Part shown: one piece after another, positions 36,056-41,619 of the stretch
How positions within the stretch are numbered: the first letter of the stretch is position 1
Layout: every line of letters starts with the position of its first letter
NCBI GenBank assembly: GCA_018066245.1
Contig: JAGHRT010000015.1
Location: forward strand, 1 to 64,000
Length of the DNA: 64,000 bases
Reading direction: 5' to 3'
Source: Candidatus Equimonas faecalis
GTDB taxonomy: Bacteria; Bacteroidota; Bacteroidia; Bacteroidales; Bacteroidaceae
The notes under the pieces: model-generated
What the model saw: only the letters and a program-made list of their open reading frames with translations
Database searches by the model: none
What the model was told of the DNA's origin: nothing
Position numbers and translations under genes: made by a program

Positions 36056-39000
36056 CTACATGAGCGGGCCGTGGCCGCCCTGACGGGGCATGGACTGGCG
36101 CATGATTTCGTGGGCTTCGTCGGCTCCGCGTCCGTGGCGGGCGGCTGCTTTCTGCGCCTTGGAGGCCTTGGAACCTTGTGCCTCGGTGTCGTCGGCGTGC
36201 TGACCGGAGAAGATGTTGAACTTGTAGATGACGTGGAGCATCATGTAGGAGTTCAGGGCCATGTGCCAGGAGTCGGAGCGCATCGTGGCGTTGATGGTGC
36301 GGGAAATGTTGCTCTGCTGGCCCAGTATGTCGTAGAACTGGAGCATCACGGTGAGGGGACGTCCTTTCAGGAAGCTTTGTGAAATCTGGGCATTCCAGAG
36401 GAGCTCGTTGGTGTTGAGCGACTTGGAGGAATAGCCCCTGCGTGAGTTCATGCGGATGTCGGTGGAGAAGGCAAAGCCGCAGTCGAGTGTTACGTTGCCC
36501 GACACGCCGTAGTCAAATCCCCAGGTGTCCATGTTGCCGTTGCTTTGGAGCTGGGAGCGGGAGTGCTGGTAGTTCACGCGTCCGTTGGCTGAGATGTCCC
36601 ACAGGCTCTGTCGGTAGCTCAGCGCGAGGCTTTCGCTGAGATTGGTGGTGCGGTTGATGTTTGTCTTGGCGTAGGGCAGGGCCTCGGCGAAGAAGCGGGA
36701 TATGCTTTCGTTGGTATAGATGGCGGGAATCACGATGCCCGCATCGGCATCGGTGCTGACGTAGGCCGTGCTGTGGTTGTAGCGGAAATTGGAGTGGGTG
36801 CTGATGTTCCAGAGCTTTTCGTAGCCCAGTGCCGAACTGAACATGAGGCCGAGGGCGGTGTTCCAGTGTCCCTTGATGTTTTGGGGAGAGGAGAAGGTGC
36901 GGCCCGTCTCGCGGTCATAGATGGACAGGGTGCTGATGGTGTTGCGCGTGTGCGAAAAGTTCCAGTTGGCGGCCCAAGACTGCTGGCGGTCGGCGTTGTA
37001 GTCGTTGAAGTTGGCGGAAAGGCTGGTGTTCCACGACGGTTTCAGGCCGGCGTTGCCGGTGGAGATGCGCAGGGGGTTGCTCGTGTCGATGACTTCGAGA
37101 AGATTGGTCATGGAGGGCTGGGAGCTGCTGCCTCGGAAGTTCAGTTCGAGGCGGCGGTTGCGGGTCATGTTCCAGCGGAAGCGCACCTGCGGAGCCACGT
37201 TGAACACGTTGCGCGTAACGAGTGTGTCGATTGCTCCCTTGGTGTAGTCCATGCGCGTGTGTTCGGGATTGAAGCTCACGCCGGCGCTGAGGCGGATGTC
37301 GCCTTCGTTGTAGCGCAGGCCGAGGTTGATGGAGTGGTTGTCGTACTTATAGGTGGCGTACTGCGAGTTTTGATTGTCGCGCAAGGCGGCCAGCACGTCG
37401 TCGGGGTTCATCAGGAGGAACTGGTTGAGGAGGTCGGTGGTGGGGATGTCCCGTTCGTCGCTGACGGAGCCCGTGTGCTTGATGCTTCCGGAGGGATGGA
37501 AGTAGGCGGCGTGCGTGGTGCCTTGATATTTGGCTACGATGCGGCCGATGCTCGTCTGGGGCTGTGCAAAGTCGTAGAGGTTCCAGAGGGTGCGTGTCTG
37601 GTCGTTGAAGCGGTGGTTGTAGGTGTAGCGCAGTTCGCCGTAGAGCTTGCCCACGATGGGCTCCACATAGCCGCCTCCCACGCTGACGTTCCAGTTGGTG
37701 GAGGGGGTGGTGGTGAACTGGTGGGTGGAGTTGTCGAGGTTGTGGGTGTAGCCCTGCTGCGGGTTGCCCTGTCGGGTGAGCACGTTGGCCAGGGAGTAGC
37801 TGGAGTTTCTGCTGTGGGAATAGTTGCCGCTGGCCTGGAAGGAAATGTTGCGGCCCTGCTTGCCCAGGAGGCGGCGCGTGGCGGAAAGGTTAGCCCCCAC
37901 GCTGTGGCTCTGGCTTTCGGAGCGCGAAGCGTTGTCGCGCAGGTTCACGAGGAAGTCGGCGTAGGCGGTGTCGGGCTTGATGGCGTGTGTCTGGGTGTTG
38001 AAGTAGTGGCCCAGGATGTCGTCGGCATCGCCGGCATCGGGGAACTGCTCGAAGGGGTCTTTGTCGAAGGTGGCGTTGATGGAGCTGTTGTGGCTGCGGC
38101 TCTTGCTCCAGGAGTAGTTGGGCCTGAAGGAGATGGAGGTGAGGCTGTCGGGGCTCCACTGGAGGCGCAAGTTGGCCTGAATGCCCTGCGCGAGGGAGCC
38201 GCCCCAGGAGTGGGAGTTGGAGAAGGAGCGGTCGCGGTTGGTGGTAAGGAAGGTTTCGCTGGAGGTGGTGCTTTCGGTGGTGTTTTCACGGCGCGTGTAG
38301 CGGGCACTTCCGCCCAGTTCCAGCTTGCCGCCCTCATATTTCTTGCGTCCGTTCTCCCAGTTGAAGTCCACGCCCACCATGGTGTTGATGTTTATGCCGT
38401 TGCCGCCGCCACCGCCGCCCATGCCGCGCGGGCCGCCGAAGCCGTTGTCGCCGATGTTGTTGTGGGAGGCCACGAGCGTGACGCGGCTATGGTCGGAGAA
38501 TCGGCTGACGAAGAGTTTGCCGCTGTAGAGCCCTCGGTCGTGGTAGTCCCAGCCGCCGGCGAGGTCTATGTTGCTAATCCACGATTCGTTGAGCTCGTGC
38601 TTCGTCATGATGTCGAGGACGAAGGAGTCGTTGCCGTCGTCGATGCCGGTTTGCTCGGCGTAGTCGCTCTTCTTGTCGTAGGTTTTTATTTTCTTTACCA
38701 AATCGACGGGCAGGTTCTTCATTGCCGTCTCGGTGTCGCCCTTGAAGAAGTCCTTGCCGTTGACGAGTATTTCGCTGACCTGCTTGCCGTTGATGGTGAT
38801 GGAGCCGTCGTCGCCCACTTCGGCTCCGGGGAGTTGCTTGACGAGGGCTTCGAGGGTGGCTCCCTCGGCGGTGCGGTAGGCGTCGGCGTTGAACATGGTG
38901 GTGTCGCCCACTTGCTGCACCTTGGCCACGGAGGCCCGCACCACGGCGGCGCGGAGCACGTATGTGTCGGAGTACATGGTGAGGTCGCCCAGCCGGAGCG

Positions 39001-39328
39001 TGTCGGTGAGCTGGCGGGCAGAGTCGGCAGGGGCTTCGGGAAGCGTGAGTTCCTGGTAGATACTGCGATAGCCTATGTAGGACAGGCGCAGGATATACTT
39101 GCCCGGTTTGGCTCCGCTCAGGACGAAGGTGCCGTCCTCCTCGGTGTTGGTGCCGGCTATCATGGTGCTGTCCTTCGGGGTCATAAGGCGCACGGTGGCG
39201 TAGTCGATGCCCATTTGGGCTTCGCGGTCGATAACTTTGCCTGTGAGCACGTAGGTCTGTGCGCCGGCGGCGAGGGTGGCAAGCGTCAGCAGGAGGCTGG
39301 CGGCAAGGCGGTGGGTGAGGGTTTTCAT
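36056..39328 (-). CDS. Outer-membrane beta-barrel protein (TonB-dependent receptor-like, OMP_b-brl_3 type)
   Basis: 1090 aa from the ATG at 39328 (MKTLTHRLAASLLLTLATLAAGAQ), preferred over the track start because it begins the signal peptide. Residues about 24-110 are a carboxypeptidase-regulatory-like domain ('VLTGKVIDREAQMGIDYATV'), about 125-225 a plug-like domain ('TLEALVKQLPGAEVGDDGSI', 'ILVNGKDFF'), then a long barrel rich in aromatic strands. A Gly-rich loop ('GGPRGMGGGGGGNG') lies near 300. The C-terminal end is charged and ends beyond the last strand, unlike a classic terminal Phe. No SusD partner is adjacent, so substrate is unknown. Divergent from the AAA ATPase gene. Confidence 0.9.
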   Translation of the reverse strand: MKTLTHRLAASLLLTLATLAAGAQTYVLTGKVIDREAQMGIDYATVRLMTPKDSTMIAGTNTEEDGTFVLSGAKPGKYILRLSYIGYRSIYQELTLPEAPADSARQLTDTLRLGDLTMYSDTYVLRAAVVRASVAKVQQVGDTTMFNADAYRTAEGATLEALVKQLPGAEVGDDGSITINGKQVSEILVNGKDFFKGDTETAMKNLPVDLVKKIKTYDKKSDYAEQTGIDDGNDSFVLDIMTKHELNESWISNIDLAGGWDYHDRGLYSGKLFVSRFSDHSRVTLVASHNNIGDNGFGGPRGMGGGGGGNGININTMVGVDFNWENGRKKYEGGKLELGGSARYTRRENTTESTTSSETFLTTNRDRSFSNSHSWGGSLAQGIQANLRLQWSPDSLTSISFRPNYSWSKSRSHNSSINATFDKDPFEQFPDAGDADDILGHYFNTQTHAIKPDTAYADFLVNLRDNASRSESQSHSVGANLSATRRLLGKQGRNISFQASGNYSHSRNSSYSLANVLTRQGNPQQGYTHNLDNSTHQFTTTPSTNWNVSVGGGYVEPIVGKLYGELRYTYNHRFNDQTRTLWNLYDFAQPQTSIGRIVAKYQGTTHAAYFHPSGSIKHTGSVSDERDIPTTDLLNQFLLMNPDDVLAALRDNQNSQYATYKYDNHSINLGLRYNEGDIRLSAGVSFNPEHTRMDYTKGAIDTLVTRNVFNVAPQVRFRWNMTRNRRLELNFRGSSSQPSMTNLLEVIDTSNPLRISTGNAGLKPSWNTSLSANFNDYNADRQQSWAANWNFSHTRNTISTLSIYDRETGRTFSSPQNIKGHWNTALGLMFSSALGYEKLWNISTHSNFRYNHSTAYVSTDADAGIVIPAIYTNESISRFFAEALPYAKTNINRTTNLSESLALSYRQSLWDISANGRVNYQHSRSQLQSNGNMDTWGFDYGVSGNVTLDCGFAFSTDIRMNSRRGYSSKSLNTNELLWNAQISQSFLKGRPLTVMLQFYDILGQQSNISRTINATMRSDSWHMALNSYMMLHVIYKFNIFSGQHADDTEAQGSKASKAQKAAARHGRGADEAHEIMRQSMPRQGGHGPLM

Positions 39329-39374
39329 CGTTGGGAAAAGGCGTTTTTGTGTAAGGGCCATAATTTTCAGGCTA

Positions 39375-39382
39375 CAAAGTTA
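39375..39382 (-). promoter_or_regulatory. -7 element of the outer-membrane barrel gene
   Basis: TAACTTTG on the minus strand, 46 bp from the start codon at 39328. Confidence 0.6.
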
Positions 39383-39476
39383 CGCAATATTTTTCATATA
39401 CATGCGCGTGGGAGCCCCCTTTTTGCCGTTTTTGCCGGCGGGCGGCGTGTTTTTTGCCAAAAATGCCGTCTGAATG

Positions 39477-39508
39477 CTTGCCCGATAGCGAAAAAGTATG
39501 TAACTTTG
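39477..39508 (+). promoter_or_regulatory. Promoter of the AAA-DUF4435 pair
   Basis: CTTG (39477-39480), 20 bp, TAACTTTG (39501-39508). Leader to ATG 39704 is about 190 nt. Confidence 0.7.
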
Positions 39509-39703
39509 CCCGGCAGCAGGTCTTCTCCCCGTCAGCGGAAGCCGCCGCCTCCGCCCTTGCTCCCGCAGGGTAAGGAATCCGCCCTTAAAGGCTGCGAGCG
39601 CCGTCCTATAGGCTGCGGAAAACTACTGTATATACTAGAAAAAACTAGTGTACAAACCAAGAAAAACCATCGGCGGACAGCGAAAAGCCGCCCCATAAGC
39701 CCT

Positions 39704-40531
39704 ATGCAAGCCAAGTATATCTCACGCATCGTCATCGACAGCCTGTGGCAAGGCCACAAGCACATAGACTGGGTTCTCCGCCCGGGAGTGAACGTGCTCA
39801 GCGGCAAGAACGGCGCGGGAAAGAGCACCATTCTGAACCGCATCGTCAGCCACCTCGCCGAAGTGCTGCCCCTCGAAGGAGCCCTCGCCAAGAGCACGGC
39901 GCCCGGCGGCGTAACGCTGGAATTCATGCCTGCCGAGGCCGACACCATCCGCTACGACATCGTGCGCTCCTTCGACCGCCAGCTCATCCGACTGGACAAC
40001 ATACTCAACTCCACGGAGGTGAAAATCCGCACAGAACTGGACTGGCAGCTCTACCAGCTGCAACGCCGCTACCTGGACTACCAGGTGAACGTGGGCAACC
40101 GCATGATTCAACTCCTCACCTCCGGCGACCCCACCGCCCAGCAGCAGGCCACGGCGGCGGCGGGGCAGAAGCGCCTGTTCCAGGACATGGTCGATGAACT
40201 CTTCCGCGACACGGCCAAGACCATAGACCGCAGTTGCAACGAGCTGCGCTTCCTCCAATATGGCGAGCCCCTCCTGCCTTATCTCCTCTCCAGCGGCGAG
40301 AAGCAGTTGCTCATCATCCTGCTCACCGCCCTCACCGAGGACGCACAGCCCTGCGTGCTCTTCATGGACGAACCCGAAGCCAGCCTCCACTTCGAGTGGC
40401 AGAAGGTGCTCCTGTCCATGGTTACGCGCCTCAACCCCAACGCCCAAATCATACTCACCACCCACTCGCCCGCCGTCATCATGGACGGCTGGGCCGACTG
40501 CGTAACGGAGGTGGAAGAAATAGAGCGATGA
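39704..40531 (+). CDS. AAA/ABC-type ATPase, PARIS AriA-like or OLD-like
   Basis: The track ORF begins at 36773, but its first 977 codons are antisense to the barrel gene. ATG 39704 (MQAKYISRIVIDS) starts a 275-aa ATPase. Walker A 'SGKNGAGKST' (about 33-42), signature-like 'LSSGEKQLLII' (about 194-204), Walker B 'VLFMDEPEAS' (218-227) and H-loop 'LTTHSPAVI' (about 250-258) are all present. The stop overlaps the next start as ATGA, so the two proteins are made together. Architecture fits the ATPase of PARIS-type or OLD/Gabija-like nuclease systems; at 275 aa it is shorter than the E. coli AriA I know of, so the exact subtype is open. Confidence 0.85.
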   Translation: MQAKYISRIVIDSLWQGHKHIDWVLRPGVNVLSGKNGAGKSTILNRIVSHLAEVLPLEGALAKSTAPGGVTLEFMPAEADTIRYDIVRSFDRQLIRLDNILNSTEVKIRTELDWQLYQLQRRYLDYQVNVGNRMIQLLTSGDPTAQQQATAAAGQKRLFQDMVDELFRDTAKTIDRSCNELRFLQYGEPLLPYLLSSGEKQLLIILLTALTEDAQPCVLFMDEPEASLHFEWQKVLLSMVTRLNPNAQIILTTHSPAVIMDGWADCVTEVEEIER

Positions 40532-41541
40532 GCCTGCAAAAGTACCTTTCGAGCGACTACATCAAGGCGGCCAACACCCTCAAGGGCGGGCGGCGTTGCA
40601 TTGTGGCCTATGTGGAAAGCTACGACGACGTAGCCTTCTGGAGCCAGGTGCTGCGCCAGTGGGAAACCCCCGACCGCTACTTCGAGGTGATGCTCCCCTC
40701 GCGCTCATCGCTGGCCAAAGGCAAAAAAATAGCCCTCAGCCACGAACTCGGCCCCGAACTCATCGCCTGCGTCGATGCCGACTACGACTGGCTCATGCAG
40801 GGCAGCACGCCCACCTCCAAGTTCCTGTGCGAAAGCCCCTACGTCCTCCACACCCACGCCTACGCCATCGAAAACCTGCAATGCTTCGCCCGAGGACTGC
40901 ACGAGGTGTGCGTCAAAGCCACGCTCAACGACCGCCACGTGTTCCCCTTCGCCCAATTCCTGACCGAATACTCCGAAACCGTGTGGCCCCTCTTCGTGTG
41001 GAGCGTCTGGGCCTACCGCTACGACAGGTACAAGCGCTTCTCACTCTCCGACTTCGCACGCATAGCCACCTCCCTGAAAATCGACGTGCAAGCCCCCCAA
41101 AAAGCCCTCGACGAACTCCGCAAACAAGTAAACAAGGCCGTAGCCCAACTCCAACACCGCTTCCCCGAAGGCCGCAAGACCTACGCCCCCCTGCGGCAGC
41201 AGATGCTCGACATGGGCATTACGCCGCAGGACACCTATTTATATATGCGAGGCCACGACCTCATGGACAATGTCATCCTGCCCCTCGTGGAGGACGTCTG
41301 CAACAGGCTCCGCCGGCAGCGGGAGCGCGAAATCAGCGCCCTGGCCTGCCACAGCCAGCAGAAACAGAACGAACTCTCGGCCTATCGCCGCGCCTGCGCC
41401 TCGCCGCAGGAAATGATACGCAAGTATTCGGGCTACACCGAAGCCCCCCCCTACCTCCTCATCTGCGCACAGGCCGCCCAACTCTTCGCAACCGACGAAA
41501 CCGACGGCGCAGCCCTGCCAAAAACAGAAGAAACCCGTTAA
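40528..41541 (+). CDS. DUF4435 protein, TOPRIM-like nuclease partner of the ATPase (PARIS AriB-like)
   Basis: 337 aa from ATG 40528, which overlaps the ATPase stop by 4 bp; the longer track ORF is out of register with this coupling. 'CIVAYVESYDDVAFW' (Glu30) and 'LIACVDADYDWL' (Asp83, Asp85) are spaced as the E and DxD of a TOPRIM fold, the metal site of DUF4435/AriB nucleases. 'HAYAIENLQCF' is also typical of the family. In PARIS, AriA holds AriB until a phage anti-restriction protein triggers release and toxic cleavage. Pairing and motifs support that class; function here is inferred. Confidence 0.85.
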   Translation: MSLQKYLSSDYIKAANTLKGGRRCIVAYVESYDDVAFWSQVLRQWETPDRYFEVMLPSRSSLAKGKKIALSHELGPELIACVDADYDWLMQGSTPTSKFLCESPYVLHTHAYAIENLQCFARGLHEVCVKATLNDRHVFPFAQFLTEYSETVWPLFVWSVWAYRYDRYKRFSLSDFARIATSLKIDVQAPQKALDELRKQVNKAVAQLQHRFPEGRKTYAPLRQQMLDMGITPQDTYLYMRGHDLMDNVILPLVEDVCNRLRRQREREISALACHSQQKQNELSAYRRACASPQEMIRKYSGYTEAPPYLLICAQAAQLFATDETDGAALPKTEETR

Positions 41542-41587: not shown

Positions 41588-41619
41588 CTTGCCGAATCCA
41601 AAAACTCTGCGTAACTTTG
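41588..41619 (+). promoter_or_regulatory. Promoter of lemA
   Basis: CTTG (41588-41591), 20 bp, TAACTTTG (41612-41619); ATG at 41653. Confidence 0.75.

Follow-up and report, generated by a model that had tools for sequence, protein, structure and literature searches.

A predicted compact PARIS-family gene pair in the Bacteroidaceae core genome

Defence systems are generally seen as accessory and mobile. In a 64 kb contig stretch (here called the window, meaning the whole stretch of DNA analysed), a gene for a short ATPase is followed directly by a DUF4435 gene in a housekeeping setting. A preliminary description had noted the resemblance of the two genes to the anti-phage system PARIS, and had left room for a chromosomal relative with another role. 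The question was which of these descriptions fits the pair, named here ariA and ariB.

The gene pair and its place among known systems

The features of the locus, in window positions, were as follows.

39478..39508, + strand: Bacteroidetes-type promoter motif TTG-N20-TAACTTTG upstream of ariA (pattern match, consensus only)
39704..40531, + strand: ariA, compact ABC/SMC-type ATPase (AAA_21) of 275 aa, predicted sensor and inhibitor subunit (profile and fold matches)
40528..40531, + strand: ATGA overlap of the ariA stop and the ariB start, read from the sequence (translational coupling inferred)
40528..41541, + strand: ariB, DUF4435 protein of 337 aa with TOPRIM residues E30, D83 and D85, predicted nuclease effector
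41589..41619, + strand: separate promoter motif TTG-N20-TAACTTTG before lemA (pattern match), a unit boundary outside the ariAB unit

The motifs and the overlap given in the preliminary description were all found on translation. AriA carried a Walker A motif (GKNGAGKST, residues 34-42), a signature (LSSGEKQ, 195-201), a Walker B motif (VLFMDEPE, 218-225) and an H-loop (TTHSP, His254), AriB carried Glu30, Asp83 and Asp85 at the TOPRIM positions, and the four bases 40528-40531 were common to both frames. This ATGA overlap was specific to the window genome; elsewhere the gap between ariA and ariB ranged from -4 to about 300 nt and was once 1.4 kb. A 1252-codon open frame (36773-40531, + strand), spanning ariA and the antisense of the neighbouring outer-membrane protein gene, is an artefact of high G+C, which inflates open-frame lengths.

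The published rule calls PARIS where a DUF4435 protein (27 bits) adjoins an ATPase that reaches the cut-off of AAA_15 (32 bits) or of AAA_21 (27 bits) (PMC9122126). AriA matched AAA_21 at 72.4 bits (8.9e-20) and AAA_15 at 58.5 bits, and AriB matched DUF4435 at 139.3 bits (2.2e-40), with the genes overlapping by 4 bases; the scores were far above the cut-offs, so the motifs were not due to chance. NCBIfam gave only ATPase matches, far below cut-off, for AriA and none for AriB. In PADLOC, a check proposed in the preliminary description, the 253-position AriA model PDLC04164 covered residues 1-274 of AriA (1.5e-48) and the AriB models PDLC02983 and PDLC04165 matched AriB (1.2e-51 and 5.1e-30 respectively), with the same outcome for relatives from Bacteroides ilei, Xylanibacter rodentium and a horse-gut MAG. 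The suggestion that the short ATPase marks a compact subtype gained support here: given the match to the compact AriA model, the shortness belongs to a described subtype and is no anomaly. The PADLOC compact models are sequence families, and they are silent on fixation in a bacterial family.

The folds predicted by AlphaFold from 67-69 homologues (mean pLDDT 90) were compared blind with 350,542 PDB chains using Foldseek. The best match for AriA was AriA of the PARIS complex (8v46_A, 5e-12), and the best solved counterpart was AriA both by fold (8v46/8ux9) and by profile. For AriB, the best match was 8ux9 chain A, which is AriB (5.6e-3, probability 1.00), all others being worse than 1, and no OLD or GajA structure was among the AriB fold matches listed. 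The full-length TM-score between AriB and 8ux9_A was low (0.37-0.40), indicating that domain placement differs from 8ux9_A. Sequence searches of the PDB with AriB did not reach the solved E. coli AriB chain and gave no direct alignment between the two, the match to this chain being one of fold only. By profile and by modelled fold, the two genes are members of the PARIS family and of a compact subtype, as the published rule, the PADLOC models and the best-matching solved structures concur. A placement outside the PARIS and OLD families, which the preliminary description had named as telling against its proposal, was not what the profiles gave.

The E. coli B185 prototype (PDB 8ux9 and 8v45-8v49) has the same composition, an ABC ATPase gene and then an adjacent DUF4435/TOPRIM gene, with the same motifs. 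Its AriA is longer (464 aa vs. 275 aa in the window), and Walker A (near residue 40) and the signature (near 366) stand about 325 residues apart in it, but only about 155 in the window protein; window AriA is thus without some 170 residues, about half, of this region, and the missing stretch is part of the middle region carried by longer relatives. A related ABC ATPase is also found in OLD, in Gabija (GajA) and in PtuA of Septu and retrons, and OLD and GajA have a TOPRIM domain as well. Both domains are on one chain in GajA and in OLD, where a single polypeptide defines class 1, whereas they are encoded by two genes in the window. Gabija adds an adjacent UvrD-like helicase (GajB), but the window has a beta-barrel-type protein gene and lemA/htpX at that place, and just 3 of 18 other loci had an SF1 helicase gene close by, either set apart from the pair or oriented divergently. 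Septu pairs PtuA with an HNH nuclease (PtuB), whereas the partner in the window is a separate DUF4435 gene, with no HNH family among its Pfam matches.

Distribution, inheritance and genomic setting

An AriB homologue was found in 194 of 201 sampled Bacteroidaceae genomes and in 127 of the 131 high-quality ones, nearly always in single copy (counts which include genomes of genus g8, whose pair belongs to another lineage). The family is taken in the GTDB sense, and the close AriA relatives bear the names Bacteroides, Phocaeicola, Prevotella, Paraprevotella and Xylanibacter. AriA was present in all 19 high-quality genomes of the window's genus. Outside the family, about 29 of 147 genomes of the order had DUF4435, as did 8 of 245 of the phylum; many frames elsewhere in the order were about 520-545 aa long with DUF4435 at the C-terminus and are probably fused AriAB proteins. 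Universal conservation and essentiality in the order had been named in the preliminary description as an outcome that would refute its proposal; near-universality was found for the family, but neither universality in the order nor essentiality was borne out.

ariA and ariB were adjacent in practically every locus compared, and the 4 AriA loci without a complete AriB were all at or close to contig ends. At one locus an arginine deiminase/amidinotransferase-like gene (L100:4883-6130) lay between intact ariA and ariB. An AriB-AriA fusion considered in one genome (G011) was rejected, as the frames overlap.

The family sequences, with genus g8 left out, formed one clade (support 95/95 for AriB and 92/95 for AriA). 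Of the 13 RpoB splits with good support, a joined AriA and AriB tree of 29 genomes recovered 10 and strongly contradicted none; 12 of 26 splits were common to both trees (mean 0.28 and maximum 3 with shuffled labels), and the distances were correlated (r = 0.79 vs. a permuted maximum of 0.28). This agreement with RpoB indicates, at the level of sequence, that the pair was inherited vertically from the Bacteroidaceae ancestor and is part of the core genome of the family. Such a distribution differs from the patchy, mobile occurrence that is typical, though not defining, of PARIS, and from E. coli PARIS, which is carried by P4/P2 elements. It is what is new in this work: a search of the literature outside subscription papers found no paper calling the pair core or vertical. 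Rst_PARIS in human gut genomes was counted as one more defence system (PMC10924106), vertical core inheritance not being mentioned in the passages of that study considered here. A PARIS system, not necessarily the window pair, was also named among the transcribed systems in a study of a Bacteroides host (PMC12135933).

Neither ariA nor ariB was present in three genomes (G163, G135 and G121; completeness 99%, two of them closed) of genus g3, whose synteny is Bacteroides-like; this argues that the pair was lost as a unit and is dispensable there. The emptied site kept its MscS and DMT-transporter flanks, with genes for aconitase, isocitrate dehydrogenase and citrate synthase between them; a defence gene in this site was rejected, this operon being found there. 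At least three genomes of genus g8 had another PARIS-type pair in place of the core one (L235:7381-9585 and L180-L182), with an AriA of about 370-390 aa and an AriB 32-33% identical. A solitary AriB-like protein was seen in one genome (L236:8335-9423, - strand, in G312; AriB model 7.3e-47), with the TOPRIM residues kept, no AriA beside it, and a ClpB-like and a phenylacetate-CoA-ligase-like gene as neighbours.

The neighbours of ariAB in the window were a gene for an outer-membrane beta-barrel-type protein and lemA/htpX. The latter adjoined the pair in the window alone and were absent from all other loci compared, and the commonest neighbour in other genera was a divergent DMT transporter; on the loci compared, the chromosomal site of the pair has moved between genera despite vertical inheritance. 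lemA/htpX were rejected as functional partners, both because they adjoin only in the window and because lemA has its own promoter motif (41589..41619), from which lemA-htpX may form their own transcription unit; the weight laid on this neighbourhood in the preliminary description was misplaced. A defence island or prophage setting was rejected, the neighbours in the loci inspected being housekeeping genes.

The motif TTG-N20-TAACTTTG was matched 7 times on the + strand and 3 times on the - strand of the window (0.55 per strand expected from shuffles), and 22 of 80 relatives had it in the 300 nt preceding ariA, vs. none of 76 controls. Its distance to the ariA ATG was 195 nt in the window but only 17-37 nt in most relatives. 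A sigma-70 promoter scan gave no match, as expected for the phylum Bacteroidetes.

Two Bacteroidaceae “plasmid” records with ariAB were present in PLSDB (NZ_OY725943.1 and OY726067.1). Plasmid carriage in the family was doubted: the first record, from B. finegoldii, has the chromosomal order meaB-DMT transporter-ariAB-MscS and is probably a mislabelled chromosomal contig, and the second, from P. massiliensis, has no annotation. Pairs resembling ariA-ariB were also seen on Rop-type plasmids of 4-5 kb, pSE11-5 of E. coli SE11 (annotated merely as an ATPase and a hypothetical protein) and pKp_SB61170_2 of K. pneumoniae. Unannotated PARIS-like ATPase and TOPRIM-type pairs were seen in Escherichia phage vB_EcoM-813R9 (L241:1987-4090, between tail genes) and Sinorhizobium phage Aussie (L242:566-2775).

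Conservation, proposed function and alternatives

Median dN/dS was 0.08 for AriA and 0.13 for AriB (49 close pairs), values which point to purifying selection on both genes and to a pair that is not decaying. AriA identity to the window protein was mostly 57-68% among relatives (56-73% for endonuclease III), so that, by sequence identity, AriA appears about as conserved as this housekeeping protein. AriB evolves faster than AriA and was least conserved in residues 166-225 (the helical middle) and at the C-terminus. In two Alloprevotella-type genomes (L103 and L104), AriA was 99% identical but AriB only 86% (dS 0.27 vs. 0.60), which suggests recombination or faster change of the effector.

Mutating the predicted catalytic residues abolishes PARIS defence in E. 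coli. In 69 AriA sequences, the invariant residues were G34, N36, G37, G39 and K40 of Walker A, L195, S196, G198, E199 and Q201, D222-E223-P224-E225, W232-Q233 and T253-H254-S255-P256; in 67 AriB sequences they were E30, D34, G65, K66, D83, D85, D87, E115, G242 and H243.

Our preferred reading, to which we give a probability of about 0.62, is that the pair, a fixed part of the Bacteroidaceae core genome, is a compact PARIS-family abortive-infection module that would answer a phage cue by cleaving RNA, probably tRNA. Subunit homology, invariant catalytic residues, gene pairing, joint loss, purifying selection and vertical inheritance were computed in this work; the hexamer, trigger sensing, release, tRNA cleavage and abortive infection are carried over from E. 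coli PARIS (PMC9122126, PMC11455837, PMC12409363), and by this analogy an anti-phage function is likely. As an ABC-type ATPase, AriA would form an assembly in which bound AriB stays inactive, and on sensing a phage-encoded cue would free AriB. The freed AriB would dimerise and, as a putative metal-dependent TOPRIM nuclease, would cut RNA. Like that of E. coli AriB, its target is most probably host tRNA, in favour of which speak the conserved catalytic residues and a basic patch described below; translation and growth would then stop and the phage cycle would not be completed. As the compact AriA is without much of the E. coli middle region, its sensing surface, or the way it reads the trigger, must differ.

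Against this reading, the pair is found in about 95% of the family, in single copy and vertically inherited, unlike the usual patchy and mobile defence gene; none of the loci inspected lay in a defence island or prophage, their neighbours being housekeeping genes; the compact AriA must have a sensing surface of another kind than E. coli AriA; and the full-length TM-score of the AriB model to 8ux9_A is low. The core status of the pair in the family lends some weight to the other role envisaged for a chromosomal relative, and a domesticated role is the chief rival to the anti-phage reading. A domesticated PARIS would sense an internal cue (translation stress, DNA damage or nutrient shift) and trim tRNA or another RNA as a regulatory or dormancy response, defence being secondary or lost. 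Near-universal, single-copy and vertical presence for the life of the family, conservation of AriA like that of endonuclease III, purifying selection on ariA and ariB and housekeeping neighbours would all fit such a role, but we regard it as rather unlikely: the outright loss of the pair in the three near-complete g3 genomes argues against an essential role there, the sister genus g8 has a different PARIS-type pair, as exchangeable immune modules do, and AriB changes faster than AriA, chiefly in its helical middle and C-terminal parts. With a similarly low probability, the Bacteroidaceae ancestor may have domesticated PARIS into a permanent, family-wide stress or immunity switch, which would act through RNA cleavage and answer a cue other than phage anti-restriction proteins.

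A defence module whose TOPRIM subunit cuts DNA like OLD/GajA, instead of tRNA, seems improbable. The E and DxD residues are common to OLD nucleases, which act on DNA (PMC10568477), but the sole near-significant solved fold match was AriB, a tRNase, with no OLD/GajA among the matches listed. AriB also has a basic patch, K64-G65-K66-K67, 34-37 residues past E30, in which K66 was conserved in 67/67 sequences and K64 and K67 were always Lys or Arg. The patch lies near the position at which E. coli AriB grips the anticodon loop with K60 and K64, its catalytic residue being E26 (PMC12409363); these lysines stand 34 to 38 residues past E26 vs. 34 to 37 past E30 in window AriB, a positional parallel between unaligned sequences. 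A guard against conjugative elements and plasmids, dominant in Bacteroidaceae gene exchange, instead of phages is very improbable: many integrative elements are exchanged in the family and a fixed immune module would pay under constant invasion, but the triggers known for PARIS are anti-restriction proteins of phages (PMC11455837).

Meaning for the Bacteroidaceae

A defence pair fixed in a whole family would be a warning that automated tallies of defence systems lump core genes together with acquired ones, and we infer that the core pair would account for surveys in which PARIS is present in a fifth of gut genomes but nearly absent elsewhere. The question is testable in genetically tractable Bacteroides, with the genera and strains naturally without the pair as controls. 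Fixed in one of the dominant gut families, a PARIS-type pair would give Bacteroides, Phocaeicola and Prevotella an immune trait that is built in.
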